Shown here one piece after another: positions 5,501 to 46,903 of a DNA stretch of 64,000 nt. The DNA lies in the NCBI GenBank assembly GCA_021399435.1, contig JAJTUP010000063.1, forward strand, positions 1 to 64,000. The letters run 5' to 3'. A program made the translations under genes and the position numbers. Origin of the DNA: Diaporthe sp. PMI_573 (taxonomy: Eukaryota; Ascomycota; Sordariomycetes; Diaporthales; Diaporthaceae). The notes below the pieces were generated by a model that searched no databases, was not told the DNA's origin, and saw only the letters and a program-made list of their open reading frames with translations. How positions within the stretch are numbered: position 1 is the first letter of the stretch; each line of letters begins with the position of its first letter.

Positions 5501-5559
5501 CCAAACTCCCTTCATCCTGATTAGAGACGACAGTAGTTTCTTCATCACTGTCTACTACC

Positions 5560-18954: not shown

Positions 18955-21900
18955 CTATGCTTCCTGAAATACCGGCCGAGCCCGTTTGACAACATTCGAC
19001 GCCAACCCACTCAGCGAGGAGCTTCCAATCAAGTCGAAAATGCTGATCTCGACGCGAGCATTGGGCACAAGCCAGTTTCGCAACTCCACGGCCACGAGCG
19101 AGTCCACACCGTAATGAGAAAGAGGACGGCCCGGGTCAATATCCGACTCGGTGATAACAAACATACTTGATATCTTTGCAACCAACGCGTCTTGTACCGC
19201 ATTCGCAGCCTCGTCCAGGCACCCTGCTCGGAAGATCTCCTCGTGCAGGCTCACATTCCCGGGGCCGGATCGAGAGCCCGCACGGCCCACGGGACTCGAA
19301 GTCGACTCACCCTGCAGTGTAGAGAAGCGTAGGTCATGCTCGACTAACCCGGCCCTGGAGATGCCCGTAGCTATCTGTGATGTACGCGGCGACCGGCGAG
19401 GATTGCGTATGGCATAATCGACCAAACCCAAGACCTCGGACTCGCTCAAGGGTCGAAATCCGTCTTTCAGCAAACGGTCCTTCATTCCTGTGTCTTGCGT
19501 GTTAGCAACAACGCCGACAGAATTAACGACGCTCAGGTCAATGGCTACGCATGGCAGGCCTCTGGTGCTTAGATGGCGTGCCATTGCGTCCTGATATGTG
19601 TTTCCGGCTGCGTAGTTGGCCTGTGATGGATTTCCGAGGACACCAGAGAGTGACGAAAGAAGTATGAGGAAGTCCAAGCTGGGACGCAACAGCTCTGCGA
19701 TGTTCTTGGTGCCGCTGACCTTTGGCTTCAGGGCATTACTCCATTGAGAGAATCTCATGCGCTCCAGAATGGAATCCTGTTGTTGTCGGACTATCAGTGA
19801 ACAGCCACTCAGGGTTAACCATGCTTGGGACCTACGTCGAGCATCATGCCCCCATGCACCACGCCTCGTATCTCTGGCAGCCTCGCCCTGCTGCATTCAC
19901 CAAGGACCAGCTGCAGGGATTCGGCGTCCCCAACGTCGCAATTCTTGACCAATATTCTGGCCCCGCCGCTGGCCAGCTCCTGTATGAAGGTTGAATTCTC
20001 CGAGCGTGACGCCGCATTCCGAGAAACCAGCAGGAGGTTTCGGGCGCCTTGAGATATGAAATACCTCGCTATGGACTGCCCGATACCACTAAGGCCACCA
20101 ACAATCATATACGAACTTTCTGGTCGAAGCTGAGCGTGTTTCAGCGGCTCGATAACCTGCGGAGTTGTCAGATCCATCCAATCCATTCGCCAGTAAATGT
20201 ATAAACAAGGCGGGTGCATTTACCTTGACGAGTTCATTCGGTCTGGGAACCAGGACAATTTTGCCAATATGGTTTCCCGCTTGCATGGTCCGGAATGCGC
20301 GAGCAGCCTCGGATAGAGGTACTGCCGCCACGGGCGTGATGCTTCGGATCTTGCCGCTCCCAAGCAGGCACAACATCTCCTGAAGGAGGCGCTGAACAAG
20401 GGCACCCTTGTTGTCAGTCAGCTGTATTATATCGACGTGTATAAAAGAGAGAGCTCTTCGGAATGGTTCCATCCCAAGGGACTTGTTCAGGTGCACATCT
20501 CTCTTTCCGATCTCAATGAATCGCCCATGGGGTGCGACCAAGTTCCAGCTTTCGTGGAGGAGGTTGCCAGCCAGCGAGTTGATGACTATGTCGACACCAC
20601 GTCCCGCAGTGGCATCTCGGATTTCCTGAGCGAAGAGTTCGTTTCGACTGGAGAATATATGATCCGACGGGATTGAGTACTGGCTCTCGAGAAACGCACG
20701 CTTCTCCTCGGTGCCGGCAGTGACGAAGATCTCGATGCCCTTCCACTGGGCCAAAATTATGCATGCCTGTCCCACACCCCCTGAAGCAGCATGGATGAGA
20801 ACAATGTCGCCAACCTCGCAGCGGCCGGCCTCGAATAGCGAGTAGTACGCTGTCAAGAAGGCTGTCATGAACGAGGCAGCCGTTTCAAAGGACATCGATT
20901 TCGGTATACGTGCCACAGATGTCCTTTGCGTCCGGACAGTGTTCGCAACATGACCATGTGGAGTCACCGCGCAGACACGATCTCCAACTTTTAGATCGTG
21001 TCCGACATCGACAAGAGTTGAACGTGGCCCAACTCGAGTCACCACTCCTGCACACTCAACGCCAATCTCTTGTTTCTCTTCCTTGAGCATTCCCATAGCC
21101 GCCATGACATCGTGGAAGTTGAGGCCAAAGGCACGTGGCTCGATTTCGACGTAGTCCTCCGGCAAAGGCAGCCCTGCATCCGGGTCTTGTCTAAAAACGA
21201 TGCTATCCAGGAGTCCCGGCGTGTCGATATGCATGCGTAGCTTGTGTTTGGACTGCACAAATGGTTTCATTTGTGGGGTCCCCCCTTCGAGACCATCCAT
21301 GAGGGCTTTGTTCTCTTCGCTGTCGACGCAGATTCGGGGCACAAATATTTCAGAGTTGCGTGCGGCATATTCCGTATCCAAATTCGTGACATCTATCGCC
21401 CAGTCCATCACTCTCTGGAACACCCGAGTTATGACTGAATGGCTGGATGAGCTCCATCCTCCTTCTGAAGTGTCAAGGTCAAGAGATATGTATCTCTTGC
21501 TGGTGTTCTCGAGGCGTGCAGTGCGAAGCAAGCCAATATGGCTTGCGTTTTCCGGAATCTCGCAGTTCATGGCGGAGCCTGTTGTGATCCAGAGCAGTGC
21601 TTTACATCTCGTGATTATTTTCTTGACACTTTCAAAAGTAGTTTCGTCGAACGGTGGCGCGGGACCGCCAAGACCAGAAATGAGAACGCAGACCTTTCCC
21701 TCTGGCACGACCTCCGAGAGCTTCTCAACGACCAATGACATAGCCAGGTCCTTGGAAAAAGTTTCGGAGAGATCATTCAGCCATTCCGAAGGCGGTTGCG
21801 TGCCGTGGTAGACCACTGTGGCCGATTCATCCAGATGGGGCTGCCGGTGTGTGGCGATAGAAGACATGATGCAGTTCAGGGATGGATTCTCTTCATCCCC

Positions 21901-24900
21901 ACAATCCCAAATTTCTGCCTCCAAACCAGTGAAGCCTGAGTTTCTCAGACAAATATCCCACGACTCTGATGACATATTGGGACTTGATCTTCTCTCTGAC
22001 TCCTCGCTCAGCCACCACCCGGGCAAGGTTCCAAAGATGAGTTGCACTTCAGGAGTGCCCCTTGTTGCTCCCACCAGGACAAGCTTCCCCTCGTCTTTGA
22101 GAAGCCTCCTTACGTGACCCATGGTTGTCTTTATACACTTCGCTTCGTGTAATACATGAGCCGCTATGATGATGTCGTACGATCCAGCCTCAAAACCCTG
22201 GTCGACCGGGTCCTTCTCGATATCCAGTTTCGTGTACGAGATTTCATCTCCCCAGTCCACCAATTTCTCTCGTGCTGTGTCCAAGAGCGCTTGAGAGATG
22301 TCTGTGAAATTGTAGTGCTCGAACAGTATCGCCCCGCCGCTTTCGCCGTTGAGAGCCTGCAGAACAGGCATTGTGCATCCTCCTGTCCCCGCGCCGATCT
22401 CGAGTATACGCACTCGAGGAATCTCCTCTGCAACGCCACGCACCAAACTTGCGGCCTGAGCAGCTGAACGTTTGAAGTGGTGGAAATGCTGGTAGAACTC
22501 GTAGAGGCGTTGATCTTCCATCATGAGCTCGAGCGGGGCGACTTGATTCCGCATGATTCGAACCAGATTCTTGCCTATCCTCACGGAAAGTGCGCCTGTC
22601 ACGCTCGCCTTCTCGACCTTGTCAACGTGCATCTGCTTGACCCCTGGGGAGCTCGAGGCCCATCTCGAGCTTCTTGGCGCCAGCTCGTTGTTTGCGGCCT
22701 GCTGTTCCAGAAGCAGCATCCATGCGTGCAGCCTCTTGTGGTGCCATTCCAGATTCGACACATCTTCGGCCGTGAGCCTTTTGAGCGCATCGGACACCAT
22801 GTAGAAGGTGGATCGCACGAGGTCCTTATTCAGAATCTTCTCATCCTCTGGAGCCTCAGTGCGCAGGGCGTCCGCGTAAGTCTTGGCATCATTGAGGATG
22901 AAACTCCTTTTCCAGTCGGTGACGAGACAAATTCTTTCCTTAGCAGAAATTCCCTCAGTTACGTGCCCAAGACTCTGGAAGTTCATGTCTTCGATTTCCA
23001 TCACCGGGGCTTTTGATTGCGCCGAGCGAACAGCAGTTGAGACATTGAAACCCTGCTTGCCGTAATGGAGTAGAACGGCGTTAGCTTCAAGCCGGGCTCC
23101 AGGGTCGGAACTGATGGTGGAGGAGATGAACAGGCTCTTGATTGATCTCGGAACCGCAGTGCCAACCGTCTTCTGGTGGTGTGAGGATAGGCATGGATAT
23201 GCCGCCTGAAATACCGAGTCCAAAGTAGTTGGATGTATGACATGAGAATCACGGCGTTCTGCCGCGGTTGCAGATGTAGACTTGGCGACAATCAGTTTTG
23301 TCAGCGATCTTCCCTCGCTTTGAAGGATTTCGTCCTCAATGTTTCGGAATGAAGGCCCATGCTGCACACCGAGGGCATGTAGGGAGTCATATAGTTCAGT
23401 GGGTCTCAACCTCTTGTTGCAGCTGTTGGTATTTAGCTGAACCCCTACTTTTTCTGCAACAGTACTGAGCACGAAATTGTTTACTGGCCGTTTTGTCTTC
23501 AAAACTGATATCAACCCGGAAGCGATCTCGTCCCACGGGCTTTCTTTGTCTGAAGCTGAGCAAATTCGAAATCGGCGACAGTCAGATATGAGTGATCGTT
23601 CATCGACGGGATCGAGGGACAGCTGGACTTCAACGCCCTCAGCGTCATCGGGCACCACAAGTGCCTTCAGTATTTCCACATCACGTAGAAGGTATCCGGT
23701 GGTCATCTCTTCCTGGGAGTCATATAGCTGGCGAACAGCCTCTATGGCCATGGCGACGTATCCAGATCCTGGGTACACTATGTTGGACTGGATTACATGA
23801 TCTCGTATCCAAGGCAATTCGGCAGTGCGTAACACTAGTCGCCAGATTGGTCCGCCACTTAGACCTGGAAGCCTGACTCCGAGCATTTCGTGAGGCGGGT
23901 CCTTTCGGAATCGGTGCTCTCGGCTTATCCTAGACTCGATCCAAAATTTAGTCGCATGGTTCCAGGGATATGAGGGCAGATCCGGGATTGCTGTCAGGTT
24001 ACTAACCCCTCTGGGAAAGTTTACATGAGAAATATTGACGGCACATCCATGTTGGAGTAGCTTTCCTGCGAGCGTCTGCGCTGTGGTGACGGCGTCCTTG
24101 CCCCTGTGCAGACAAGATTCGTAGACAATCCCCAAGTTCTTCGTGTTTTGCCAGCTCATTATCTGGCGTATAGGGCCTGCAAGCGCGCTGTGAGCGCCAA
24201 CCTCGACAATGAAGTCGAGGTTCTCTGCAAGCACCATGTTGCTGAAAGACTGGGTAAATTGCACGGGAAGAAGCATGTTCTCAACCCAGTGCGCCGGTCC
24301 GAGCTGGTTTGCGTCCGAGATCCGACACCCGGTCGTGGAGGAATAGAACTTGACGGAGTCGGGAAATAAGCGCTTGCCACACTCCATGTGTTGTTCCAGG
24401 TGACCCGCATAGCTCTCGGCGAGGGGAGCCATATGGTGCGAATGGAAGGCTGCTTGGACTTTCAGTCTTCGTGCAAATATTCCCGTCGATCTGAAAGGTT
24501 GTTCAAGGATTTCAATCGCGAGTGTATCTCCTGACAAGGTGACACTTGAAGGACTGTTGAAGCATGCGACCATCACCTTTCCCGCAGCTGTATCTGCCAG
24601 GTCGTCCAGGTATTGTTTGACTTCGTCGGGGCCCAAGCCCACAGCCATCATACTTCCTGAGACTGTCTGACTGGCAATGTGATGTGCGTTGACCAAACCG
24701 CGGAAGAAGGTTATGGCCATGGCTTCCTCGAGTGACAGCGCGCCGGCGGTAAATGCGGCGGCAACCTCGCCGGTCGAGTGGCCTGTTACTGAGGTGGGCC
24801 TGACGCCCCAGTCCGCAAGCAGGTAAACTAGGGCGATTTGAACGGCGCAAGTTAGTGGTATGCTGAACTGTACTTGATCTACTCGAGAATCTTTTCCATT

Positions 24901-27159
24901 CCGCTTCAATTCATCTAAGATTTAAATGTTAATCTCTGGAATCGTCGACCATTTGCCGGGATCACTTACCAATCAATGACCAAGTGCCACCAAAGGATCT
25001 TATGGCACCTTCGCACTTCTTGAGAGTATCTAGGTATGCGGGATATGCACCCATCAGTTCTCTGCCCATAGCAAACCACTGCGCGCCTTGTCCGTTGAAC
25101 ACGAACCCCAGCCTTGGTTGGCGACTGAGAGCTTGCAAGGGTCTTAGTTTGTTATCAGAGAACGATGAAATGAGTGATTCCAGTGAGGATGAAGAAACCG
25201 TCAGACTCCAAGGGAATTTCGAGCGACGTTGGCCAAGCGTAAAGGCCAAGCTTTTGAAATCGAGATGCTGATTCTGCTCCAGATGCTTGCGAAGATTCGA
25301 CACCATTGTGAGAACTGTCTTTTCATCTCGAGCACTCAGGACCAAGAGTTTTGGTGCTTCGTCTTGACGTGCGCCCTTAACTCCATTCCCGACGAGAGTT
25401 CTTACCTTCGGTGCAGCCTCGATAATAACGTGAGCATTCGTGCCACCGTAGCCAAAGTTGTTGATAGATGCTCGACGAGGATAGTTTGCTGGCCATTGCT
25501 GTAATTTCAGTGGTATCTGAGTACGCCGGATGTTTGAGTCAGCCTGTCGACCTGCATCGTGACTCCAAGTACAACAACTCACCTCCAGTCTTAGGTCATG
25601 CAGATCAATGTTCGGATTGGCTTTAGCGAAGTTGAGACTCGGTGCAATTTGCCCATGCTCTATGGACTTCGCCATCTTGATGAGAGCTGCTATCCCGGAT
25701 ACAGCTTCAGTATGCCCGAGATTCGTTTTCACAGACGCCATCAAAACAGGGGAACCCCTGGGCTGGGCCTCCTCGGCCCTGAAGGCTCGACCGATGGCTT
25801 TGGCCTCTATCGGGTCCCCAGCAGGCGTCCCAGTTCCATGAGCCTCCACCACGACGATGTAATGAGGGTCGAGGCCTGCTCTCTCATAACATTCTCTGAT
25901 GAGATGTTGCTGGGCGGCTCCGTCTGGTGAGGTTATTGTTGCGGTCTTTCCGTCCTGGTTCACGGTAGTCTCGCGGATGACCGCTCGGATTGGATCGCCG
26001 TGTCTTATTGCGTCTTCAAGCCGTTTTACAATCAAGATCGCCGCGCCTTCTCCTCTTCCGTACCCCTGGGCACGATGATCGAAAGCGTAGCACTTTCCTT
26101 CCGGTCCACATGTACTGAGCGAGGGTAGTTAGTACTCAATGTCCTCGATATCCTGATATGACGAGACACGGGCCGGAAGTGGCTGTGTGATCATGATGCT
26201 AATGAGAATCTCACCCGAGGCTGGAAAGGCTGGCAAACATGTCCGGGTTCAGATTGATAGAAGCTCCGCCGATAACAGCGCAGTCTGACTCTCCCGAGCG
26301 TAGGCTCTGGCAGGCCAAGTGAAGGCCCATCAGTGACGTGGAGCAGCCTGTGTCAATAGCAGTGCTAGGGCCTTTGAGGTCGAAGAAGTGAGATATTCGG
26401 TTGGCGACCATGGCGGAATAATTGCCCGTTATAAAGCTGCGAGGAACATGCAAGGGGTCGGATAATAGCCGATCGTGGTAGTCCTTGGTGAACGTCCCGG
26501 CGAAAACCGAAGTTTTTGACCCTGCAATTTCTTCTATCGGGATTCCGGCTGCGCAAAACGATTGTTCATCAGCCCATAATTCACCTCGTAAGAGGGTTCC
26601 TGCCCCAGTAGTAAAAAGAGAGCCTTGAACTCACCACTTTCAAGCGATTCGAATGTCAATTCGAGTAACATTCGAAGCTGTGGGTCCATTGCCTGGTATG
26701 GTATATTAGACAGGAAATCTTACGTGAACAAAGGCGTGGTAAAAGACTTACAGCAGCTACCTCGGCAGAAAGATTGAAGAACGAGGTATCGAAAAGAGCT
26801 ATGTCCTCTTCCAGGAAATATCCTCCGCGGATGTGCGTCTGATGTTTATTAGGGTCAGATCTGTTTCTCTCATAGAGCCTTTGGTTCACCCAAATATAGC
26901 CACTTACACTTCCAACCTTCTCAGCTTTATCGTGATGGAATGTTGGCATGTTGAACCTCTTCTCTGGTATCGTAGACCAGGCACTTTTCCCCTTCGAAAC
27001 GAAGTCCCACAGCTTCTCTGGACTGTTGACCCCACCAGCGAAACGGCAGGCCATGCCGACAACAGCCAGGGGCATCGTGTCTGGTTCTGAGCCATTGTCT
27101 TCGCTGATTGCCGATTGCTTGAGCAGGCTATCAGCGTTTGACGACTTTTGAGGTGTCAT
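18955..27159 (-). CDS. Highly reducing polyketide synthase, KS-AT-DH-MT-ER-KR-ACP (2570 aa)
   Basis: Eight exons: 27159-26752, 26692-26635, 26548-26215, 26114-25583, 25516-24970, 24914-20224, 20156-19836, 19776-18955; all phases agree. KS from about residue 30, nucleophile Cys224 in DTGCSTS, His in EAHGTGT and NLGHTEA. AT Ser673 in GHSTGE. DH His near 998 (RDHVIQSN) and Asp in HPTTLDSVFQ. C-methyltransferase SAM motif LEIGAGTGG near 1465. ER NADPH loop HAASGGVGQA near 2000. KR loop VGGLSGIG near 2211 and Tyr near 2352. ACP Ser near 2521 in GVDSL. All domains keep their key residues, so it should make a fully reduced, alpha-methylated chain. The protein ends about 45 residues after the ACP serine with no thioesterase or reductase, so release must happen in trans; the nearby BAHD enzyme is the candidate. 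Cytosolic. Confidence 0.95.
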
Positions 27160-27986: not shown

Positions 27987-30363
27987 CTATGACCCTAGCT
28001 CCGTTGGACTCTCAAACCGTGACTTGACTGACTTCCATCCAACGAACAAACCACACAGGAAAGCTGAGCCTCCCGCCGCTATTGAAAATACAAATACCGC
28101 CACGATAGATTGGTTGTAAGCCTGTAGAACAGATGTGAGTGTCTGCGGTGGCGTCACGTGCCTGACACCCGTAGCGCCAGCATCAATGATTTGCTGGGGG
28201 TTGAGTCCAGGTATGCCGGCCAGCCCATGGTCCAGGCTATTAGAGAAGATATTTTGAGCGACCGAAACGCTGATGCTAGACCCCAATGTCATGAAAAAGC
28301 CAACCATGGCGTTACCGACTGGCACATCCGTCTCGGCGACCGAGCACTGCACCGCCAGAAGTGGCATCTGAAATGCCGTGCCTGCTCCCGCGCCTGCCAG
28401 CACTTGGAATCCAATCCACATCCCCTGATGGCTGTCGAGCTGCAACGTGGTCATCAGTCCAGCAGCAATAGTGAATATAGCTGTGCCTAGCCAGAAGAAA
28501 GGGGCAAAAAAGCCGATGAGCTGGACAAGGGCTCCCGCTATGATGGCGAAGAGCGATAGAGAGGCGACGTATGGGATGGTACGGATACCAGATTGTGTTG
28601 CATCTGTACCTTGAACCACCTGGAAATAGTAAGGCAAATAGTAGAAATGAGCGTAAATGCCCATGCACAGCAACGCTTGGAAGATGACGCTTGAGAGAAC
28701 CGTACGTTTAGAGAGTACTCGTGGCGGTATGAGAGCACTAATATCAGTGTCAGAATTACACAGATACATTCAGCATGAAAGCTCTTGTGGGTGTATGCAC
28801 TGACTTATCCTGTCTGTAAATTTGTATACCGACAAAGCCGGCAATCAGCAGGACGAAACCCAGGAGTGTGCCCCATACTCGGGAGTCAGACCAGGGATAT
28901 GTGGTTCCGCCCCACTGCAGAGACAGAAGCAGGCAGATTATACCCGGTATGAACGCGGAAGACCCCATGAAGTCAAGGCGCAGGATACGATCCATGACAG
29001 AGAGTGGGGTCGTCTGCCGCCGAGGAGGATTGAAGACCAGAACGACGACCAAGAAAGCGACCGCTCCCAGTGGAAGATTGATCCAGAAACACCACCTCCA
29101 GCTCAACTTGTCGGTCAATACACCGCCCAAGAGGGGGCCAGTAACGGAAGCAACTGCGACGTATAGGTCAGAGATGTGCGACGCGCTTTTGCGCTGTTCC
29201 AAGATGATTTAGGAATTCCCTCTCGCGGTAAGAGAAGCTATTAGAACCAGTAGGTACGGAGCGACTTACTTCCAAAGGTGCTCGCAAGTGAGCTATTAAA
29301 CAGTCCTCGCTTGTGAATTGGCACAGAGCCCGCAATGATAGTCGAGCCCCCGGATGTCAGACCCGCGCCGCCCAGACCCGCAACCGCGCGCCCGATGATG
29401 AGGACCAGCGAGCTAGGCGCAGTGGCACATATGACAGAACCGACTTCGAAGAGCAGGAGTGCTGAGAGATATGTCCACTTGACGTGGAAGTAGGTGAAGA
29501 TCTTTCCATATGTAGGCTGCAGCGCGCAGCTCGCGAGAAGGTAGGCGCTGCCGTACCAGCCCGTGTCGCTCAGTGTGTTGAACTCGCTCGTTATGCTGGG
29601 GATGGCAGTCGCTAAAGAGTGCCAAGAGAATTTTCAGCAGCGCTCCGGCCTTGTGTTATATTGAGGGACTTGACAAACTTATGATTGTGTTATCCACTGC
29701 AGTGGCGAATGAGACAAGACAGATGCCTAGTGTGATGGTTGTTGCCATCCATGTTGTTGGATATTGGGAGTCATCTTCCTTCACTTCATTCTCGGCCACC
29801 ATAACAGACTGTCGTGTTATCTGTGGTATGCTGACCCTTCGTCCCTGATTTATGTCTGCGGTCGGCACTGGTGACGTAGGTCTCGTGGCAAAAGTGACCT
29901 CGGTGTTGTATTCTGACGAGTGGGTCAAGGAGGACAGGAAAGTAGCCAAGTCTTGCGTGGACTGACTCTGACTTTCCGCCATCGACAATGGCGACAATGG
30001 CCGTTGTATGGAAGGCGTAATTCGACCATCTTCAGTATTCTTGGGCTTCCTTTCCGGTCCTGCTGTTGACGAAGGCGGGCGCAGAATTTCAGCAATGACA
30101 CTGTTACGATCAACAGCCTGTCGGGAGCTGAGTCGCGAGCTAAGTCGATACGCGTTGCCACCGTGTAGAGTATCGGGTGTATCAATACGATCCTCGTTAA
30201 ATGAAGTATATTGACGAGAACGTCGTCTTGCAGCGGAGCCTCCGGATCTTGAAATAACTGAATCCCGAGGAGTGCTCCATGGAGAGTATTGCGATGATTC
30301 GACAGTGGCCTCGACAGTCGCAATGAGCCAGTTGGGTGTCCACTCTGGCCACTGCTGAGGCAT
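27987..30363 (-). CDS. MFS exporter, DHA2-type with 14 predicted TM helices (708 aa)
   Basis: Four exons: 30363-29679, 29611-29270, 29153-28805, 28737-27987, joined in phase. A long polar N-terminal domain of about 205 residues, rich in Ser and Arg, precedes the first helix (TTWMATTITLGIC). Then come the drug:H+ antiporter motifs: DNTII at the end of TM1, GRAVAGLGGAG, motif C in VTGPLLGG followed by WRWCFWINLP, and a C-terminal half with many hydrophobic helices. The pattern is that of fungal 14-helix toxin and drug exporters. In this cluster it most likely carries the finished metabolite out across the plasma membrane and gives self-protection. The N-terminal extension is longer than usual and could be regulatory; a shorter start is possible but no better ATG stands out. 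Confidence 0.9.
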
Positions 30364-30904: not shown

Positions 30905-32807
30905 CTATCTCGGAACCAGGCGCAACTTGATATCTTGAGGCGGCGTCAACGTGACCGGCGAGCCCCCACTGCGGCATCGGAGTGTCCATTCCAAGGCAGC
31001 ACCCGAGACCCCTTCGTCAAGCTCCAACTTATACGTCCGGAGCAAGCGCGAGAAGAACGCCAAGAACTCGGCCCGGGCGAAGTTGCGACCGAGGCACGTC
31101 CTTGGACCCTCATTGAACGTCATGAATGTGCCTTTCTTGTGGCTGTGAATTGACACTGCTTCTCGTCTTTGCGCTGAAGATGGATTCGACGGGTCGAATT
31201 TGTTGGGGTTCTGGGCTAGCCATCGTTCAGGTTCTATGATGTGAGGTGAAGGCCAGTTGGCTTCGGAGAAGTGAGTACCGGTGATGTTGACGACACAAAT
31301 TGTACCAGCAGGTAGAAAAGCTTTGACTCCATTCTCGCTAGAGTGCCCGCGCGTCATCACCTCTTGAACTGACTCCGTCTGACGTGTTATGGGGAGAACC
31401 GTAGGGAATACTCGCATAACCTCGTACTTGTTCTTTGTGAGCTTTTGCAGTGGGCTATCGAACTGTCTCGTCCACAAGGATTTGAAATGCTCTTACCATT
31501 AGCGCGACCAGGTAGTGAAAGCTGTGGAAGTGCTTCGAATATGACAACTCTCGATCATCGGACCCACCAATTTTGGCATAAACACTGTCGACTTCCTGTC
31601 GTGCCTTTTGCTGAATGTCTGTATAAATTGCCAGAACAACACAGGTGTAAATCATGGTATTTGCAGTCGTATCGTAGCCTCTCATCCAGTCAGTCTTCAG
31701 ATAAGACCTGTAAATCTTGAGAGACGAGACAAAGTGTTTTCTTACCAGCGAGAAGAAAAATAAAAATATTACCTTTAACCTCCTGATCTGTTAATTTGAC
31801 TCCAGGTCCCGTATGAGACTTCTCTGCTCCCGCAGACTCGCGGCGGGATCGGAGAAGCGCTGTCAAGAGATTTTCCCGTCGAGGTTCCATCGAACTCCCC
31901 TTTGTAAGTGCTAGATTTTCGCGAGCAAGTAACTCATCCATGTATTTTTCGAACTCTGAGAATGCAACCCAGACTGTTTTATCCGGAAGAATGCGAAGTA
32001 AAAATCGTGGTAGTAGCAGAATCAGCGGCAGTTCTGAGATAATCTTGGTTGCCGCCTCCACCAAGGACATTTGATGACCAGATGGGATGGAGTCGCGTCC
32101 GGACGCCCAGTCGGCTCTCCACCCAAAGCCAGCAAGAGACATTGTGTTCATAGTCAGTTGGTAAATGCTCCTCTTGATTTCAATTTCGCCGAGTTCCGAC
32201 CATGACTGACACAACATATCAGTTTGCCGCATGGTCTCTTCCCAGACGACGTTCTGCACTTGCTCTCCGAAAGAAGGCAGAGTGATCCGGATATGGGACC
32301 TCCAGAGCTCCCCGTCGGTAGACACGACGTTTGGACCGAATGGCTCGAGCATCTCTATCTTGCGATGAGCTGACACGTTTATCAGTCAAACCATGGTCCT
32401 CCATACTTACTCATCTTTTCTTGCATTTTCACAAATGCCTTCCTCTTGGTCACCATGCCAAGAGAAACGTCTGCATCAGCCGAGTAGCATATGATGCCTC
32501 CTGCCGAAACCACCAGGAAGACCGGTCCATATTCTCGATGTGCCCGGCCTTTATCCTCATAGTGCCAGTCTTTGACCATGAACCGAGCCCAATCTGGCCA
32601 TCCTTGGCCCTTCATGAGGTGCTCGTGGCAATACCATCGGATTAAAGCGTCGGTGAAGAAAGCGGCAATTTCTCCCTCGTGAATAGGGGACACAGTGTAC
32701 GGCAAGCCTGTCTGCCTTGCTATTCGTATGTTTCGCGCAAGGTGAAATAGCTTCCAAGTGAAGAACGAGGCTGCCAGAAAAGACGGCAAAGTCAGTCTGA
32801 GGTCCAT
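30905..32807 (-). CDS. Cytochrome P450 monooxygenase A (about 579 aa)
   Basis: Exons about 32807-32411, 32369-31746, 31678-31497 and 31441-30905. The first intron is short (41 bp). The last acceptor is uncertain: 31462 is an alternative, but it would leave a 34-bp intron. An in-frame ATG at 32828 is a longer alternative start. The N-terminal hydrophobic anchor is in LPSFLAASFFTWKLFHL. The I-helix AGYDTT is formed across the second intron. The ExxR motif is EVMR before VFP, and the heme loop is FNEGPRTCLGRNFA with the thiolate Cys near 517. An ER-bound monooxygenase that probably oxidises the sesquiterpene core or the acyl chain; regiochemistry cannot be read from sequence. It lies head-to-head with the terpene cyclase across a 582-bp promoter. 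Confidence 0.88.
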
Positions 32808-34883: not shown

Positions 34884-36350
34884 ATGGGCGAACCAGTGGC
34901 GATACCACTGAGCCCAATGGACAATGTAATGCCAAGGTTCTATATCAATTTTATCCTCACATTTCGCCTGAAATCCGCTCATGACTTTGGGCCTGTCCAC
35001 GAAGTTCTCCAAAAGAGTCTGGAGAAGACATGCAAGGAGTTGCCAGTGTTCCGCTCCAGGGTTTTCACCATACCACCAGACAGTATAAGCCCTTCCACGG
35101 GACGGCTCGCAGCACGAACATATGAGAATTGGAGTCCCGAGGTCGTCTACAACGACATCTCAGACACTTGGTCCACCTATGAAGACCTCATGGAAGACGG
35201 CCTGCATCAGGATTTGCTAGATGGCAAAGTTTTGCTGCCCAAATCAAGGCTTGACTCGGACTTCACGAGCACCGGCGCACCAGCTTTAATCACCCAAGCC
35301 AACTACGTCAAGTTGGGGTTGCTCCTCGCCGTGAGCATCTTCCATCCGACCATCGACGGGATGAGCGCCTCTCTTCTTATGAAGCTTTGGGCAAGCAACG
35401 CGCGGGCTATCCAAGGGTGCGGCAAGTTAGGACCGCCCATCACAATCCACCCCGATTCGTGCGACTATTCGATTCTGAGCCAGATCTGGGCTGAGCAAAC
35501 ACAAAACAGACTAAAGCCTACGGGTGTGGCATCGCCAGAGCTATGGCGCCTGATCGGCCTCCTGCCGCCCAATAAATCCTACCTTAGCCAAAGCCATTCG
35601 GGATGTCCGGCGCCAGAGATGCAGACACTTATTTTCTACATGTCATCAGAGACTTTCAAAGCCCTGACTTCACTGTCCGTTGCGGAAGATACGTCGCATC
35701 ACCCCTCGGCGAAGGTTACTGCCAATGATATGCTCATGGCACTGTTATGGCGCTGTATCATCCGAGCACGCGCGACAGCAGCTGGACCATACAGCGATGA
35801 ATACGGGGCTAATTCGATGTCATTGTTGGACACGACGCTTGACGGCCGGGCTTTGATCGGCGATCCGCTGCCATGGAGCTACATGGGAACGCTCGTACTC
35901 ATCGCCACGACGGAGATGTCTGTCGGCGACCTGACCAGGGATGGCACCAGCTTAGCTACGATAGCAAGAGCGATCCGAGAGTCTTTGAGTAATATTGGCC
36001 GGCAAAAAGCTCTAGATGCCTTTGGCCTCGCCTCGGATCTACACGACTACGGGGACAGCCTCCAGTACCCCTTTGCCACGTTCGATGGAGCCGAGGTCTG
36101 TGTCACCAGCTGGGTCGGACTAAGCGCCTTCGATAGCAGCTTTGGTGACAAGCTGTTCTCGGGACATGGACGGCCTGACCTCATCCGACCGCCAACACGG
36201 GAATTTGATGCGGTGTGTCGAAGGTGTGTCGTGTTGCCCATGCAGGTGTCAGGAGGATTCGAGGTTCTCGTGTCGTTGAAGACGGAAGAAATGGAAGTGC
36301 TCAAGACGGATTCGGAATATCTGGAATATTTCAAAGTAATCGATCATTGA
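34884..36350 (+). CDS. BAHD-type acyltransferase (488 aa)
   Basis: Single exon. I chose ATG 34884 because it places IPLSPMDNVMP at the N-terminus, as in the fungal trichothecene 3-O-acetyltransferase-like branch of this family; upstream ATGs add unmatched sequence. The catalytic HxxxD is HPTID (His154, Asp158). The structural DFGWG motif near the C-terminus is degenerate; the closest stretch is SSFGDKLF. Such enzymes move an acyl group from CoA, or in some clusters directly from a PKS carrier protein, to an alcohol. Because the neighbouring PKS has no release domain and the neighbouring cyclase makes a terpene that P450s can hydroxylate, transfer of the polyketide chain onto the terpene is the most attractive role. 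Plain acetylation remains possible. Cytosolic. Confidence 0.88.
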   Translation: MGEPVAIPLSPMDNVMPRFYINFILTFRLKSAHDFGPVHEVLQKSLEKTCKELPVFRSRVFTIPPDSISPSTGRLAARTYENWSPEVVYNDISDTWSTYEDLMEDGLHQDLLDGKVLLPKSRLDSDFTSTGAPALITQANYVKLGLLLAVSIFHPTIDGMSASLLMKLWASNARAIQGCGKLGPPITIHPDSCDYSILSQIWAEQTQNRLKPTGVASPELWRLIGLLPPNKSYLSQSHSGCPAPEMQTLIFYMSSETFKALTSLSVAEDTSHHPSAKVTANDMLMALLWRCIIRARATAAGPYSDEYGANSMSLLDTTLDGRALIGDPLPWSYMGTLVLIATTEMSVGDLTRDGTSLATIARAIRESLSNIGRQKALDAFGLASDLHDYGDSLQYPFATFDGAEVCVTSWVGLSAFDSSFGDKLFSGHGRPDLIRPPTREFDAVCRRCVVLPMQVSGGFEVLVSLKTEEMEVLKTDSEYLEYFKVIDH

Positions 36351-36522: not shown

Positions 36523-38229
36523 TTACTGAATGCCGAAGCCGTGGGCTAGGTACTTTTGCAGAAATCCATCACCATCGTATTTGTTCCGAATTTGGATGAG
36601 TCGCTCAAGACTCTTGCCTCCACCATAAGTTTCAAATGGCCTCTGAGTAGGACCGGCGTCGTTGAGATAAATGAAGTCGTACTCCAATCCCAGCTTCGTT
36701 GTTTCTTCAGTGATGATTGACGCCGCCTTTTCTGCGAACGAGTTGACTTTGTCATCATCGGCGGCAGTGTCCCAAGTACATGCTATCAAAGCAGCTGAAA
36801 AATATCACCTTGTCAGTCTCTCAATACCTAGACTCAAAATCTCGCTACTACAGGAATTTCTGCCCATGAAAAGCTCTCTGAATAGTCAGACTTCGGGTAT
36901 TCTCAACTTACCAATGAAGGTTCCTGAATTGGGGTCAAGATCAAGCACATTTGGACCACTTCGTTGTGATGCAAGAAGCCAATCTTTGGAGATCGGCTGG
37001 TACGTCAAGGCAACAACAGCCCCCGAAACATTCACAAGGTCTGCGAAGGCCAGATCGACGACCGTCTCATTGGCGATCCGTATCGCGCGTGGGTCCGGCT
37101 TGAAGCTGACGGACCAGAAGAGTTGGCGAGAACCTCGTGCTCCGGTCTGCTCCAGAGAGTTCAGAATTTCCGTCCAGTCCGGCACCACTTTTCCCCCTAT
37201 ATCTTGTATCACCGGCGCGACAATAGCGGTGAAATTCTCGAACGCTTTGGGATTGTCATCAGTCCCCGGTGCGAAACGAATGCTGATCAGCTGCGACGCG
37301 CCACTGCCGGGTGCCACCGACACAATGGCGCTCGTGGCGGCGTTGGGATCGTCGACTCCGCCCTCCGGGAGCATGTATGCACCAAGAGTTGAGAAGAATT
37401 GCGTCTGAGCTAACACGTTATTGCCGTCCCAGATGGTTCCGCCGACGTAGGCGGATGACATGGGGAAGGTCTTGAGATCAAAGCGCGTCACAATGCCAAA
37501 GTTGTTGTGGCCGCCGCGGAGTGCCCAGAACAAATCATCATGTTCGCCGTCAGCTGTTGCTTCCACGATACTGCCATCTGCGAGAACAACTTCGTATGCT
37601 ACCACTGTGTCGCAGCCCCAGCCGTGTTTGCTGCTGAAGTAACTGATCCCACCGCCGACGAGTAAGCCGCCAACACCGACCGTCGGATAGCGTCCCCCAT
37701 TAACGGCAAGACCATACTTTGATAGCCAGTGGTAAACGTCCCGCCAGACCTGACCAGGTCCGATGCTGGCGATGGACTGATCTTCTTTGAACTCTCGGGA
37801 GTTCAATTTGGAGAGCGATATCATGACTCCAGGCTGGACGGATTGTGCACCAGGGACAGGCATATGCCCTCCAGATAGGACGGAGAAGTGAGATGAGGAC
37901 TTTCTGATCATTTTGATGGCCTTGCTTATGTCTGAGGTAGATGATGGCTCGAATACGCAATCTGGCGACAGAATGCACGTGTTGGAAAATAATGCTATGT
38001 CAATTATTAGATGTATCGCACATGATGGACAAGAATTATGAGAGGATTGGGACCAACCGGTGGATGCATTCTGGTAAACACTTGTGTCCGGCCAAAAGAC
38101 ACTATCAGGAAACAGCGATGCGAGTCTGTTGCAAGCCAAGGCCGCAGAGCCTTTGTTGGTCCTGGGTTGAAGACCTGATTCCGCAAGTTGGGCCAAAAAG
38201 CCCAACGCAAGAACGGAATTCAGCCTCAT
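36523..38229 (-). CDS. Berberine-bridge-type FAD-linked oxidase, secreted (508 aa)
   Basis: Three exons: 38229-38058, 37994-36912, 36794-36523. The first intron is in frame (63 bp, no stop) with an unusual GTTGGT donor; removing it restores the family spacing before the CVFEP segment. N-terminal signal peptide MRLNSVLALGFLAQLAES. The FAD-binding PCMH domain is typical, with SGGHMP (covalent flavin His) and VGVGGLLVGGGISYFSSKHGWGCD-like loops, then LFWALRGGHNNFGIVT. The C-terminal BBE segment places Tyr and Asn residues near the flavin. The family oxidises alcohols or forms C-C and C-O bonds using O2 and makes H2O2. In this cluster it probably oxidises a terpene alcohol or allylic position late in the pathway, in the secretory system or outside the cell. 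Confidence 0.9.
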
Positions 38230-39149: not shown

Positions 39150-41235
39150 CTACGTAGAGCGGTTGTTGAACCTTACGTAGATCGGAGCTTTCTTCCACAT
39201 GATGTAGAAGCGAGACGCATCCTCCCAGTCCAGACTCTCGTCCACGAGCTCCCAATCATACTGAAAGACCAGCTTCGCCAAGCACAAGTTCATTTCCATC
39301 CATGCAAAACTATTTCAATTTCAGCGCTATGCCAAGAGAATAATCTAGGATGGGGGCAACGCTTACTTTCTGCCCAGACACGCTCGGTATCCGAGTGAGA
39401 AAGGCTGGCTGGCCTCCTTCACATCAGTGCAATCTGGGTCAAGCCACCGCTCTGGTTTGAAAGTCAATGGGTCGTGAAAATTGGCAGGATCGTGAACCAC
39501 CGCCCAAGCGCTCGTGAAAACTTCAGTCTGTATCTATCAGCCTCGAGGTATGCCCTTCATGCGACACGAAAGTGTACTTACCCCGGCAGGGATGTACTGG
39601 CCATCGATGACCACCCCGGGGGAGATGCGTGGAAAGCCCTGAGCCCCGGACGGGTGAATACGCAGGGCTTCGTGGATGACAGCATGGAGGTATTGCAGCT
39701 GTGACGCGGCGGTGGAATCGATCTCCTCGTAGGACTTGAAACGGGTTCTGACCTCGGACTTTAATTTTTCAAGCACTAGTGGTGTTTTCAAAAGGTAGTA
39801 TACTGCTGACGACAAGGAGTGTGCTGTGGTCTCCCCACCGGCGATACTGTAGCCTCGATGTTTAATCACTCTTATCTGTGCATGAACTTGCAAGGGGTGG
39901 TGAGATCTCACATAAGGGTGGATGCATGCGCTGTCAATTGCTCTCGTGAGATTTCTCCGTCTTTGACTTTGGAAACCACATTGGTCAGAAAGTCGTGGCG
40001 GGTATTAACCGCATCGAGTCGCCTGTATTTTCTGTGTTAGAACGACTCTGGTTCAAAGAACAACCAATACTCACTTCTGAACCTTGGCCCTACTGTATGC
40101 GGCATGCTGCCGACGGACACGTGCAGTTATAGGGGCCAGGAAGTAACGAGAAAGAACGGACAATAACGGTAATCGTCCTAGTACGTGTCAGTCACCTGCC
40201 ACGGAGCGTAGAGTGTTGCATTCTGGCACATTCCAAATATGAAAGACGGGGATCCGTAAAGGGACAAGAATGGGGCTTACGTAGGTTGTCGAGAAGGGTG
40301 ACTTCCACCATGTGGTCCAGGATGAGGTCCAGCCAGGAATGATGATTCTCTGTAGATTTATTGCAGTCAGACGAATCCAAGGCAATACAATATATGACTC
40401 TGAATTTCTGACGCAGGAAAGATCGGAGCCTACCATTTTCCACACAGCCAAAACTCTCTCCAAACGCCATCTCACCCAAGATATCAAACGTGACCATCTC
40501 GAACCAACTGACAACGTTGACTCCGTGAGGTCCTCGCTGGCTGACAGGTCCGATTTTGGAAATGAAGTCATCCCAACAACGCTGCACAATGTGCTCTTGG
40601 GCTGTGAGGGCCTTGGTTGAAAAGGCAGCGGCGAGGGACTTCTTCTTCCGAGCATGCTCAGCGGGATTTCTCTCTGATCCGACACACGGAACTTCAAAGC
40701 CAGCTCCAAATATATCATAGAATTCGCTCTTGATCAGTTGGGACTGCCCAGTCGGCGGGACACCATATACTGCCTGCCAAGAAGTGACGGATGCGAAGGC
40801 GAGTTCGTTGGGTGACACCCGGAAGACGGCACCTAGTGGTAGAGTATGAATCGATAAGAGCTCGAGGGCCGGTGTGATTTTGAAAACGGCTGTTCAGTTA
40901 CATACCGTACTTCCGGTGCTGCTCTTGCATCACTCTATGGGAGCGCCCACCCATAGTGTGCCAAAACCGCCAGAGCTGCCCTCACCGCTGCATCAATGGT
41001 ACATTCCCATGTGCTTGAGTGATAGTGAGACACCAACCAGTGAGACCCTGGCCCAGAAAGGCCCCGGAAACTTCGCCAATGGGTGAAAGTACAGGTTGTA
41101 GAAACAGCACACGCCGACATATGTCAAAGCCTGAAATTGTGAGACTCGTCAGTCAGCTGTCCTGAGGTGCAGGCTCGGCCCGTAGGTTCAACCCACCGCT
41201 ATGACTAGGCATTCTGTGAGCAAGGCCGCGGCCAT
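39150..41235 (-). CDS. Cytochrome P450 monooxygenase B (494 aa, ten exons)
   Basis: Exons 41235-41197, 41130-41038, 40975-40906, 40832-40434, 40349-40281, 40177-40075, 40031-39912, 39846-39582, 39533-39367, 39309-39150; every junction keeps frame. The N-terminal membrane helix is split by the first intron, followed by YNLYFHPLAKFPGPF, LWRFWHTM and KYGAVFRVSPNELAF. This is the layout I associate with the isotrichodermin C-15 hydroxylase-like branch. I-helix AGGETT, ExxR in HEALRIHP, heme loop FSLGYRACLGRN with Cys near 438. Introns are short (43-103 bp) and one donor is GTTGGT. Acts at the ER on a cluster intermediate, probably the terpene, given the branch. It is head-to-head with P450-C over a 702-bp promoter. 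Confidence 0.9.
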
Positions 41236-41937: not shown

Positions 41938-43920
41938 ATGGCAGTCCACGAGCTTCTCCAGAGCTGCATCGCAGCAACACTTCCACACTGGAAATGGTGC
42001 TTCTTATCAACTATCATAGTTATTTGCCCCGTGACATTTCTAGTCACCAATGTAATATCATACAGTAGCCTAAGTGATTCAACGGATGGGAGGGAGCCAC
42101 CTCTCAACCCTTATTGGATTCCTTTCCTGGGCAACTGGATATCCTTCTTGCTGAAGCGTAGGACCTTCGTTGAGAATGTCTGGTGAGTCCCAACGCCTCT
42201 TGTCACGATTTGATCGCGGCTTTGTAACTGAAGAAACCCCACCAACAGCAAAAGATTTGGCGAGAGAACACCTGTGACCATCAGATTGGGTCCAGCCAAG
42301 GCATACCTGTTGACCCAAACGGAGACATATGGATCACTTCTTCGAGCTACACGTGCCTGCACCAACAAAGCTTTTGCTGTGCGTATTATGAAACAGATGT
42401 TCGGCATGCCAGATAGCGCAATACGTATGCATGTCTTCAGACGGAACGAGGGCAAGATAACTGATCCCGAACAGATATCTACAGAGATGACAAAAGCGGC
42501 GTAGGTACTATCCCTCTGCCTGGGTCGACAGTGCCACCATACCTTAGAGTATGGCATCACCAGCACAAGACAGCATTGCGCTTCCTCCAAGGCGACAGCC
42601 TGAAAGTACATGCAGCTAGTTTCATAGAATGCCTCTCAGCCGAGCTCAGCAGCTGCAGTGTCCCCGGACCCGTCGACTCAGGAGACTGGGTTCAGCTCGA
42701 TGACTTCTACAAATGGTGGACCCATCTCCTCTTCAAAGCAGCCATTACTGCGCTGTGCGGCCCTCACCTGGTCCGCCTCAGCCCGAGCTTCGTCCAAGAC
42801 TTTTGGGGATACCATGGCCAGTCCCCGACCATCTCGAATTTCTACCCTCGTATCCTAGCGCCGCGAGCATATGGAGCACGCCAGCGAGTGCTCGATGCCA
42901 TTAAGCGCTGGCACGTATATGCGAGAGAACACTCAGACTACCGCCTGAATGGGCCAGATGACCCTGACTGGGACGAGTACTGGGGCAGCAAATGGATGAA
43001 GGTTAGACAGCAGTGGGGTCAGGATTCCGGCGCGATGGATGATGATGCCCTCGCGAGCGATGACTTGGCGGTCATCACTGCGTGAGTTACGCTATATCCC
43101 TTCCGAGATGCTACGTAGACTAACTGATCTCCCTACCACACCCAGAACGAGTGCGAACGCCCTGCCCGCTGCCTTCTGGAACCTCATCGAGATCTACAAC
43201 GACCGCAAACTCCTGGATCGGGTCCAGAATACTTTGACAGCTAGCGTCATCGTGACGAACGATAGGAGCAACACCACCGAAGATGAGCCATTGCGCTTCG
43301 ACCTGACAGGCACCCTGTCCTCCCCGCTCCTGCAGTCCATCTACGCGGAGGTCCTCCGCCAGCGCGTCTCCCTATTCCACAACCGCTCCCCTACCGTGGG
43401 AGACTACAAGCTCGGGCCCTACACGCTGCGTAACGGCGGCCTGGTATGCATCTCGACCGACATCGCACATAACTCGAACAAGGCGTGGGGGACCGGCCGC
43501 ACCGACGGTGGCAGGCAGCCACTGGGCCAGTTCTGGGCCGAGCGCTTTCTCGTCCGCCACACGCCGGGCGCGGAAGAGAAAGAGGGTGACGAGAAGGGCG
43601 ACGCCAGTGGCTGCGTACGCTTTTCGACCGAGGGCCTCGACGGCGCGTGGATCCCTTATGGAGGCGGTGCGCTGATGTGTCCTGGTCGCCATCTCGCCAA
43701 GATCAAGATGCTTGGCAGTACTGCTGTGTTTGCTGCTTATTTCGACATGGAGGTTCTCAATGGTGTGCCATGTATGGATGATTCCTTCTTTGGGATGGGC
43801 TCCCAGCCGCCAGTGGAGCCTTGTCCTGTGCGGTTGCGCCGTAAGGTTGGGGCAGTGAGGGCTTCTGCACGGAGGAGTGGTGCACCGTCGGTATGGTTTT
43901 CGCACGACCAGTATCACTAA
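41938..43920 (+). CDS. Cytochrome P450 monooxygenase C, CYP7/CYP8-like heme loop (601 aa)
   Basis: Four exons: 41938-42182, 42249-42500, 42548-43081, 43146-43920, with matching phases. The second intron is only 47 bp and its true acceptor is the CTTAG before VWHHQHK. N-terminal membrane anchor (FLSTIIVICPVTFLV). The heme loop reads IPYGGGALMCPGRHLAK, Cys522: CPGRHLAK instead of the usual CxGRxxA, as in the sterol 7/12-hydroxylase and prostacyclin-synthase-like families and their fungal relatives. The I-helix region reads ANALPAAFWN, lacking the usual acid-alcohol pair (E/D-T). ExxR is in AEVLRQR. Loss of the acid-alcohol pair often goes with isomerase or rearrangement chemistry, so this enzyme may do something other than plain hydroxylation. 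Confidence 0.88.
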
Positions 43921-44092: not shown

Positions 44093-45113
44093 TCAAAGCC
44101 ACTTCTCTAGCTCCCGATCTGTCCATTCCCAAAGCCGCCTCGCCAGCGTCTCATCATCAGTATACTTCGTAGACACACCAGAAAGACAACCCGGCGGCTC
44201 ATAAAACCCACCATTCCTGATCCCACCCCGCGGCGCAGTCGCGCACCAGAGCTGCGTCTGGACGGCCTCCTCGGGCGGCGGGAGGCTGCCCTGCATCAGC
44301 ATGGCCGAGACCCAGATGGCAGCCCGGTGAGTGGCGCTCTGGCTCGAGACGAGATCGGTGGCGACTATCCCCGGCGTGACGCTCACCGAGGTGACGGACG
44401 GGTGGCGCCGGGCCAGCTCGCGCGCGTACAGCAGGTTGGCAAGCTTGCTCTGTCCGTAGCGCACCATGCCGCCCATGACCAGCATATTCTGCGGTGTGCG
44501 CAGCTCGTCGAAGCGCACGCCGCCTGACGGGGCGCCGCGGAGGCCGGTGCTGGTTAGCAGGACGATGCGGGCGTCTGCGTTGTTGGGCCCGGGAAGGGGG
44601 GCGGGATGTTGGACGGTTTTGGCCTTGGTTCTGTTGCTGGTTTTCTCCATAAGGGGCATCAGGGTCTTGATGAACAGCGCGTGAGCGAGGTGATTCGTGC
44701 CGAACTGGACCTCGTAGCCGTCCGCTGTCAGGCCTGGGGGCTTGTTCATTACTCCCGCGTTGGCCATCAGGATGTCCAGGCGCGTCTGCTCTGTGGCGAT
44801 TCTGGTAGCTGCGGCCTTGACAGATGCGAGGCTGGCTTGGTCACATTGGAGAAATGTTATCTGTGTGTCGTTGGAGCCGGACTGGGTCGCCTCTTGGATG
44901 ACACGCTCGGCTGCCTTCTCGTTTCGGCCAGTGAAGTATATGTGTGCTGGGTAACCTTGAGCAAAAGCAACAACACTTCGTGCTCCTAGCCCTGCAGTTC
45001 CTGTTGTCTTTTGGGTCAGCGTATAAACGATAATTACAATGTGAGGATTTATCGACTTGGCCCCTACCTCCCGTGACGAGGATAACCTTTCCTTGGACGT
45101 CGCCCAAATCCAT
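44093..45113 (-). CDS. Short-chain dehydrogenase/reductase (317 aa)
   Basis: Two exons, 45113-45068 and 45000-44093; the 67-bp intron interrupts the cofactor loop, giving VTGGTAGLGARS after splicing. Other SDR motifs are present: ANAG (NNAG equivalent), LTSTG with the catalytic Ser, and YGQSK with the Tyr and Lys. A PG motif follows in VTPGIVATDL. The N-terminal Rossmann fold has an Arg after the second strand (FTGRNEK), which favours NADP(H). The form resembles fungal retinol-dehydrogenase/WW-domain-oxidoreductase-type SDRs. Likely oxidises a P450-made alcohol of the terpene to a ketone or aldehyde, or the reverse. Cytosolic. Same strand as, and 247 bp downstream of, the regulator gene. Confidence 0.92.
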
Positions 45114-45360
45114 CTTGCCGTGATGTCAAGAATATCTGCTTACGATAGTCGACCAGAGATAAACTGAGGACTCGGTCAGCTTTAGATGGTACTTTGACGT
45201 CGTGAAGATTTCATTGGCTGTAGATGGGCTATGAATTCCTGGGTAAAAGCTTCTTGTCAAAGCCTTTGTCTACTGACAGAGAATGCGGAGCGCAAGGATG
45301 GCGAGACGAATCAAAGTTCGCAACGAAATTTCAAATTCAGCCTCGTACGAACCGAGACAC

Positions 45361-46903
45361 CTAGCTTGGGTCGCAGAAGACAGTGGCGTCGACGGTGCCA
45401 CCCCCGGGGCGACACAAGGACTGGATCCGATACAGCATCGGGACGATCCTCCTCTGCGTGGCCGCCGCTCTGCCATACATGGCGTCCCAGCGCATCGATC
45501 GCGACACCATCTTCATGGACTCGATCATCGAGTGCAGCGCCTCGAGCTGAAGGCCGATCAGGCCCCCGATCAGCGTGTCCCACTCCCGCGCCGAGTCCAC
45601 CTCGTAGCTGCCCAGCACAGCCGGCCAAGGCGGCGCGCCACCACTGCCGCTCCTACCATCGCGGTCTGCATTACTACCACGCACGGCCATTGCCCCAGGA
45701 GCCCCAGCCGCCGGGTGCAGCAGGCACTGCGTGTACCCGGCGACTATCTGCTCGCTCAGCCCTGCCAGCTTGTCGGTGAGGAACTTGAGGATGGTCATGT
45801 GCTCCGGGCGCGCCCGGCAGCGCTGGCACTCGATGAGGGCCTGGCCGTAGCGGAGGGCCTCCTTGTGCGAGGCGAGACTGGCGTCTAGACCCTGGCTAGC
45901 TACCGTGTTTCGACCTGCCTCGAGCTCGTCAATGAGGAACACTACTGGCTGGAGGCAGCGGCACTCAGGCTGGGGGCTTGCTTCGATCACGTCTATGTTT
46001 CCGGGGTGGATGGCCATCGCGGGTGGTTGACCAGGTTGTGTTGTTGGGCTGGCTGGTTCCACGATCGATTGGTTGTCTTGCCCGCGCAGGATATCAGTCA
46101 AACCGGTTGACTGTTGTGATACCTCGTTCGCCGGATTCGGGCCGGAAGGCAGCACAGAGCCTTGGGGCGTCGAGGTCAGTTTTGCTGGTTCGTCTGGCGG
46201 TGAGGCCAGTCTAGGATCCCAGTGTTCCAAATCAATGGTGTCGATGAGGGGCCACTGCTCGAGGATGTCTGGATCGTTCAGGCTCGAGGTGTGACAATGC
46301 TGGTCCGCGTCTGCGCCCATGTCGAAGAGTGTGAAGACTGACTGCAGCTGCCCGTGACTGGGGTCGGATGTGCCGGGGCCATCGCTAAGTGGCGTGGGAG
46401 GTCTATGAGCGATATCTTTGAGGGCGCATTCTTTGATGTCGGCACACGGTTGCTCGTCCCCTAGAACGTGGTGGCCCTTTTGCTCTCCGGAATTAGACTG
46501 AGGTGAAAACTTCGTAACAGCTTGCCTCTGTGATGGCCGTGGCATAGTCGGGCTAGTTGGAACCGCCAGGGGCTCCTCGTTAACGATTGGTTCTCGGCGG
46601 CGTTTCTTTCCAGCTTCTGCGTAGACACAGATCCTGTCCAATGCCTTGCACCGGCTGCATCCTGTCTTTTCACCTGTGCACCTAAGCTGGGTCCAAGGCT
46701 CGGGTCAGCCACTATGTTCATCTAGAGAAGTTGGCAAACGAAAAGGGAGAGCGCCGCTGAAGAACTCCGGCTCAACTTACCTTCTTAGCACGACAAGTAT
46801 TACATGCTTGTTGTACGATTGGCCGAGACGTTCCAGGGTCAAATGCTCGACGGATTGGAGCCTCGTTCTTGTTGGTCACGTTCAGACGCCAGGTTTCCAT
46901 CAT
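45361..46903 (-). CDS. AflR-like Zn2Cys6 cluster regulator (482 aa)
   Basis: Two exons: 46903-46781 and 46686-45361. The splice falls inside the zinc cluster and yields C-x2-C-x6-C-x6-C-x2-C-x6-C starting ACNTCRAKK, with LRCTGEKTGCSRC after the junction (residues about 34-60). A basic stretch KKRRREP follows. There is a long low-complexity middle (Pro, Ser, Gln) and then a C-terminal region with CQRCRARPEHMTILKFLTDK-type sequence that resembles the AflR C-terminal domain. Two ATGs overlap the start (46903 and 46900). Probably the pathway-specific activator of the PKS-terpene cluster, nuclear, binding CCG/CGG-type sites. It marks the right edge of the cluster. Confidence 0.9.

Follow-up and report, generated by a model that had tools for sequence, protein, structure and literature searches.

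Ten contiguous genes at positions 18955-46903 of a 64,000 nt stretch of Diaporthe sp. PMI_573 DNA (contig JAJTUP010000063.1; hereafter the window) very probably constitute one pathway, predicted from sequence to yield an oxygenated eremophilane esterified with a methyl-branched polyketide. An earlier reading based on the letters of the DNA (the sequence-only reading) had proposed that the cluster makes such an ester, and our analysis supports this proposal: the sesquiterpene cyclase strongly resembles an aristolochene synthase of known crystal structure, the C-methylating highly reducing polyketide synthase (HR-PKS) appears to have no release domain, and the co-location of these two genes with that of a BAHD-type acyltransferase recurs in other fungi.

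The translated cyclase contains DDLLE and NDIWSYEKE motifs, as read by eye. Its best match among the solved structures of the PDB was the aristolochene synthase of Aspergillus terreus (E = 6.6e-126), while the next kind of cyclase followed at 2.9e-13. The two proteins are identical at 189 of 298 aligned residues (63%), and all of the metal- and diphosphate-binding residues checked in the alignment are kept (D90, R175, N219, S223, K226, E227, R314 and Y315); these residues serve the Asp-rich and NSE metal sites and diphosphate binding. The nearest database cyclase is annotated as 'aristolochene synthase' of Diaporthe eres (84%), and it is followed by nine cyclases at 64-70%, eight of which belong by name to the Xylariaceae, a family rich in eremophilanes. 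The protein deposited for D. eres (P0001, 306 aa) is devoid of part of the DDLLE motif, which is probably a gene-model error in that record. By its sequence, the window cyclase is of the aristolochene-synthase type, with aristolochene as the predicted product.

The PKS motifs DTGCST, GHSTGE, EAHGTGT, LEIGAGTGG and GVDSL were recognized by eye in the translation. Its acyl carrier protein (ACP) domain spans residues 2464-2539 in Pfam, and no release domain C-terminal of it was found among the matches listed, which cover 25 of 29 Pfam families. The best homolog in the protein database is from Diaporthe helianthi (77% over the whole length), and a shorter Diaporthe citri protein, aligned to 31% of the query, shows 77% as well; the next rows, at 55-59%, are mostly from Xylariaceae, plus Diplogelasinospora.

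The acyltransferase matched PF02458 above the cut-off (E = 2.3e-23) and reads HPTID at the HxxxD motif. Of 7996 candidates scored in our search, 53 proteins passed the limit of E = 1e-3, the weakest at 2.8e-58; the candidates were chosen by shared words, a selection which may miss more distant relatives. In the 20 of these 53 proteins that were aligned, both the His and the Asp of HxxxD are fully conserved (20/20). The second BAHD motif is DFGWG. It was not found in the window protein, which reads DSSFGD at this site, where the consensus of the 20 aligned proteins is DISFGD (pattern D-x-S-F-G-D). The sequence-only reading had described the catalytic motifs of every enzyme as intact; motifs were read by eye in the PKS, the cyclase, the P450s, the short-chain dehydrogenase/reductase (SDR) and the acyltransferase, which has HxxxD but not a textbook DFGWG. 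The Pfam scans revealed no thioesterase or CoA-ligase family in any of the ten genes. With the ACP as the last domain of the PKS and these families not seen in the set, the simplest mechanism would be that the acyltransferase takes the chain off the PKS and places it directly on an alcohol of the sesquiterpene.

In the pathway that we propose, the cyclase would convert farnesyl diphosphate to aristolochene, and the cytochrome P450s, the SDR and the flavin adenine dinucleotide (FAD)-linked oxidase would oxidize the skeleton, by analogy giving an 8-ketone and one or more ring alcohols. A reduced, C-methylated chain would be assembled by the HR-PKS, and the PKS, devoid of a release domain, would pass this chain to the BAHD acyltransferase for esterification of the sesquiterpene alcohol. 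The major facilitator superfamily (MFS) protein would export the product, and the Zn2Cys6 protein would activate the cluster. Each of these reactions, like the direct unloading of the PKS and the type of product, is predicted.

We compared 120 cyclase, 118 of 120 PKS and all 53 acyltransferase database rows for shared contigs. Two rows were assigned to the same contig when their contigs were of equal length (by script) and carried the same species name (by eye, a few names being incomplete), which gives an indirect view of the neighbourhoods. Among the rows listed, cyclase and PKS share a contig in 23 cases, PKS and acyltransferase in 15, cyclase and acyltransferase in 11, and all three in nine. 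Linkage to a row of the cyclase or the acyltransferase was seen for 26 of the 60 top-ranked PKS rows versus 3 of the remaining 58. Locus tags are close for cyclase and PKS in Cercophora (OQA88_2952/2959) and Xylaria multiplex (g398/g405), and for PKS and acyltransferase in Xylaria hypoxylon (g3631/g3637), Penicillium digitatum (7811/7815) and Aspergillus ustus (00218/00221). The linked cyclase-PKS records span Sordariomycetes, Dothideomycetes and Eurotiomycetes.

In a quick maximum-likelihood tree of 121 cyclases, the 26 linked rows (window included) were clustered, requiring 14 changes versus a mean of 23.9 after shuffling (0/500 as low). The window and D. eres cyclases fall in a 14-row clade (SH-aLRT 99) with those of Xylaria, Nemania, Astrocystis and other Xylariaceae, and linkage is seen for 10 of the 13 rows accompanying the window cyclase there. 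The pairwise distances of the proteins agree as well, between cyclase and PKS (rho = 0.60, n = 24), between cyclase and acyltransferase (rho = 0.83, n = 12) and between PKS and acyltransferase (rho = 0.80, n = 16), with none of 2000 permutations as high.

Several observations weigh against a single pathway of this kind. Contig sharing is inferred by equal lengths, and some of the contigs are megabases long. Within Diaporthe, neither the cyclase of D. eres nor the PKSs of D. helianthi and D. citri have an equal-length partner among the rows listed, and the 120 cyclase rows listed include none from X. hypoxylon. The linked label takes 14 changes in the cyclase tree, with 10 of the 26 linked rows in the other half, and does not mark one clean lineage; a shared species tree may account for part of the agreement in distances. 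Finally, Kuhnert et al., 2021 (PMC8403587) count one putative meroterpenoid cluster in X. hypoxylon, which is yanuthone-like.

It is unlikely that the locus consists of two abutting clusters, namely an aristolochene pathway (cyclase, P450s, SDR and FAD oxidase) in which the BAHD enzyme would attach an acetyl group like that of PR-toxin, and an independent HR-PKS making a separate polyketide. The cyclase and BAHD genes have the PKS on one side and the majority of the oxidase genes on the other, and the recurrence of the pair and the triple across the three classes named above also argues against such a division. It would agree with the main text of Sun et al., 2023 (PMC10686045), where, of the four clusters compared, a PKS is named just for the eremoxylarin cluster, and with another cyclase locus of the same genome (contig C142), where the 10 kb read contain models for P450 and SDR but none for a PKS. 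Moreover, 6 of the 15 contigs with PKS and acyltransferase have no equal-length cyclase among the rows listed (Xylaria sp. FL1042, Xylaria bambusicola, X. hypoxylon, P. digitatum, Aspergillus granulosus and A. ustus). The co-located PKS and acyltransferase relatives of the last three species may serve another terpene or other alcohol.

That the cyclase yields another bicyclic or monocyclic sesquiterpene, such as a germacrene- or eudesmane-type skeleton, so that the ester would not be an eremophilane, is very improbable in our estimate. Product specificity of such cyclases is unprovable by sequence, and the window cyclase is just 63% identical to a characterised enzyme; the wide gap in E values between aristolochene synthase and the next cyclase kind, the retention of all checked metal and diphosphate residues, and the grouping with cyclases of the eremophilane-rich Xylariaceae speak for aristolochene. 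Hardly credible is a larger locus whose product also bears a modular chain, made by modular PKS genes of giant size beginning 17 kb rightward on the same contig and of which the first model reaches the window end with its 3′ end, as the intervening genes show no evident tie to either locus, the right-hand locus has P450-like and hydrolase-like models of its own (named by eye), and the published relatives of the ester cluster are described without a modular PKS (PMC10686045; the accessible part of PMC8403587). A joint cluster with the modular PKS was rejected.

The ten genes of the proposed ester pathway lie in an unbroken series with zero internal stops, as modelled by a gene finder and manual splicing (Table 1), which bears out both the contiguity and the limits given by the sequence-only reading; the outer bounds are the PKS stop at 18955 and the regulator start at 46903. 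The spliced models replaced the raw list of open reading frames (ORFs), which the introns fragment too strongly. Nine of the genes contain 32 introns in total, all GT-AG, an agreement which is not an independent check, since the gene finder and the placement by hand both seek such ends; the acyltransferase gene is intronless. Hand-corrected parts are the AT domain of the PKS, the splicing of P450 'a', the SDR region and the first exons of P450 'b', P450 'c' and the FAD oxidase. The Pfam scan covered all ten genes.

Table 1. Genes of the proposed ester cluster (window positions)
Gene product	Length (aa)	Exons	Position	Strand	Basis
HR-PKS, C-methylating, KS-AT-DH-CMeT-ER-KR-ACP	2547	9	18955..27159	-	Pfam, homologs
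MFS exporter (predicted)	581	4	27987..29982	-	Pfam MFS_1 + TRI12
Cytochrome P450 'a'	569	4	30905..32807	-	Pfam
Aristolochene-synthase-type sesquiterpene cyclase	311	3	33390..34458	+	Pfam, structure match, tree
BAHD-type acyltransferase	502	1	34842..36350	+	PF02458 + TRI-like N domain
FAD-linked oxidase, VAO/PCMH family, berberine-bridge-enzyme (BBE)-like	509	3	36523..38229	-	FAD_binding_4; start-proximal intron hand-placed
Cytochrome P450 'b'	489	10	39150..41235	-	Pfam
Cytochrome P450 'c'	600	4	41938..43920	+	Pfam
SDR	317	2	44093..45113	-	Pfam
Zn2Cys6 regulator	482	2	45361..46903	-	Pfam Zn_clus

The enzyme labels of the sequence-only reading were retained for the PKS, the cyclase, the acyltransferase, the three P450s, the FAD oxidase, the SDR, the MFS protein and the Zn2Cys6 protein, but its 'berberine-bridge' and 'AflR-like' reduced to generic domains. 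The FAD oxidase matched FAD_binding_4 (E = 3.3e-29) without the BBE C-terminal domain PF08031 at E up to 1, and its solved relatives include EncM, 6-hydroxy-D-nicotine oxidase and berberine-bridge enzymes alike. In the regulator, Zn_clus was the sole match at E up to 1, with no AflR domain. By eye, the P450s read CLG, CLG and CPG at the heme Cys and contain ExxR, and the SDR contains TGGTAGLG and YGQSK; the heme region of P450 'c' is nearest to CYP7A1 among solved structures. In a comparison with gene models from four further stretches of the genome, P450 'b' best matched the P450 beside the C142 cyclase (36%, E = 2.7e-107), and the SDR had no match.

Ten flanking proteins and ORFs were scanned. 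An ankyrin-repeat ORF lies on the left side of the set, and on the right are an unknown protein, a weak glutamine-amidotransferase/phosphoribosyltransferase match, an EthD protein, an MFS protein and a further regulator. No biosynthetic core enzyme was found among these ten, and the ten-gene limits stay putative. The gene model at 50276-52554, which separates the ester cluster from the locus of the modular PKSs, gave weak amidotransferase and phosphoribosyltransferase matches only and resembles by eye a diverged amidophosphoribosyltransferase. At the contig start, positions 1-6000 have a G+C content of 37-40% versus 47-59% in the other 2-kb steps and are devoid of gene models.

The genome contains three further clear aristolochene-synthase-like genes (on C152, C142 and C140) and a weak match on C197 (E = 1.5e-6). 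Within 65 kb of the three clear genes, no ketosynthase (KS) hit was found among the matches listed, the number of KS hits being a lower bound. At C142:649372-656943, the P450, the SDR and a further gene model adjoin the cyclase gene, as named by eye. Aristolochene loci devoid of a PKS thus seem to be present in this genome as well.

The giant PKS models on the right are very unusual for a fungus and more surprising than the ester cluster. The first (C178:63999-97751, minus strand, 10,979 aa, 10 GT-AG introns) has its 3′ end at the last bases of the window, and the second (C178:99743-117523, plus strand, 5,679 aa) has 8 GT-AG introns. Pfam scanning of 19 of 20 exons detected six KS domains in the former and two in the latter, together with DH, ER, CMeT, KR and ACP domains, and an AT in some modules only; the second model ends with a thioesterase. 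In a tree of 55 KS domains, the eight from these models group as a single clade (100/99), separate from the 19 fungal HR-PKS domains (100/100), with no resolved position among 28 bacterial domains. Besides the eight, the eukaryotic rows of this tree were confined to the window PKS and 18 of its fungal relatives, and the bacterial ones were drawn from a single pattern-limited search for which part of the giant protein was the query. Reports of modular PKSs in fungi are 'extremely rare' according to PMC8708903, and none of a multi-modular fungal PKS of such type appeared in the titles and abstract starts among the matches listed. Small serine-hydrolase-like and P450-like models follow at C178:117811-121986 (by eye) and may belong to the modular PKS locus.

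Classification of the ester cluster as PR-toxin-type was rejected, because a PKS is present; PR-toxin-type clusters are not known to contain one. The PR-toxin cluster of Penicillium roqueforti (compare PMC10686045) likewise includes an aristolochene synthase, P450s, an SDR, an acyltransferase and a transporter. It differs in the PKS and in acetate being the acyl group. A novel class of cluster was also rejected. The sequence-only reading had hinted that the combination is unusual; however, PKS-bearing aristolochene-type clusters have been published (PMC10686045; PMC8403587), and this kind of cluster is already known, although the ester product itself is just proposed in the former and likewise unproven in the accessible part of the latter.

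The putative meroterpenoid cluster of Annulohypoxylon truncatum, as described by Kuhnert et al., 2021 (PMC8403587), has two acyltransferases, three P450s and further oxidases in addition to an HR-PKS and a cyclase that is 66% similar to the aristolochene synthase for PR-toxin. It resembles the window cluster in the HR-PKS, the aristolochene-synthase-like cyclase, the acyltransferase, the three P450s, the FAD enzyme and the oxidoreductase, whereas its two acyltransferases and three oxidoreductases contrast with one acyltransferase and one SDR here, and identity is 43-58%. Database rows of A. truncatum for the cyclase, the PKS and the acyltransferase (P0060, P0145 and P0280) are on contigs of equal length and probably represent this published cluster.

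Sun et al., 2023 (PMC10686045) described four aristolochene clusters, of which the PKS-containing one (xhR3-xhPKS) is from the eremoxylarin producer X. hypoxylon and was proposed for eremoxylarin, with the PKS supplying the ester chain at O-1; the P450 XhL7 and the SDR XhL6 have homologs in all four. We infer that the X. hypoxylon PKS E0Z10_g3631, which is 56% identical over 99% to the window PKS, is xhPKS, and it was assigned to one contig with the acyltransferase E0Z10_g3637 (49% identity to the window protein). The two clusters share the aristolochene-type cyclase, tailoring P450s, the SDR and the PKS, with PKS and acyltransferase rows on one contig; they differ in that identity is only 49-56%, that the fungal orders are probably different, and that the ester position (O-1 there, C-3 in lithocarin A) and the chain may differ. 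The window would extend the eremoxylarin-type cluster from Xylaria-like fungi to Diaporthe and tie it to a compound class of that group, and our contig survey suggests that the cyclase-PKS pairing recurs across several fungal classes.

Lithocarin A (C26H38O5) of Phomopsis lithocarpus FS508, which occurs alongside the related AA03390, is an eremophilane ketone with an isopropenyl group and a C-3 ester of 2-methyl-3,9-dihydroxydecenoic acid (PMC6165036). From this text we read the ketone as C-8 and the acyl group as a partly reduced pentaketide with one methyl branch, which a methylating HR-PKS could yield. No paper on a lithocarin gene cluster was found among the matches listed in our literature search. 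As the closest named relatives of the window proteins are Diaporthe proteins and P. lithocarpus makes such an ester, a lithocarin-like C-3 ester is our best single guess at the product, a tentative one. It is possible, if rather doubtful, that the window holds the locus for lithocarin-type C-3 esters of Diaporthe-like fungi within a multi-class cassette of an aristolochene synthase, a methylating HR-PKS without a release domain and a distinct BAHD-family acyltransferase, the last taking the chain directly off the PKS carrier domain; if true, this would give the BAHD enzyme family a polyketide-unloading role. The cyclase, PKS and acyltransferase make a small testable set for polyketide attachment to sesquiterpenes, and lithocarin A, a compound and not a gene cluster, is of a structure that three enzymes of these kinds could give.

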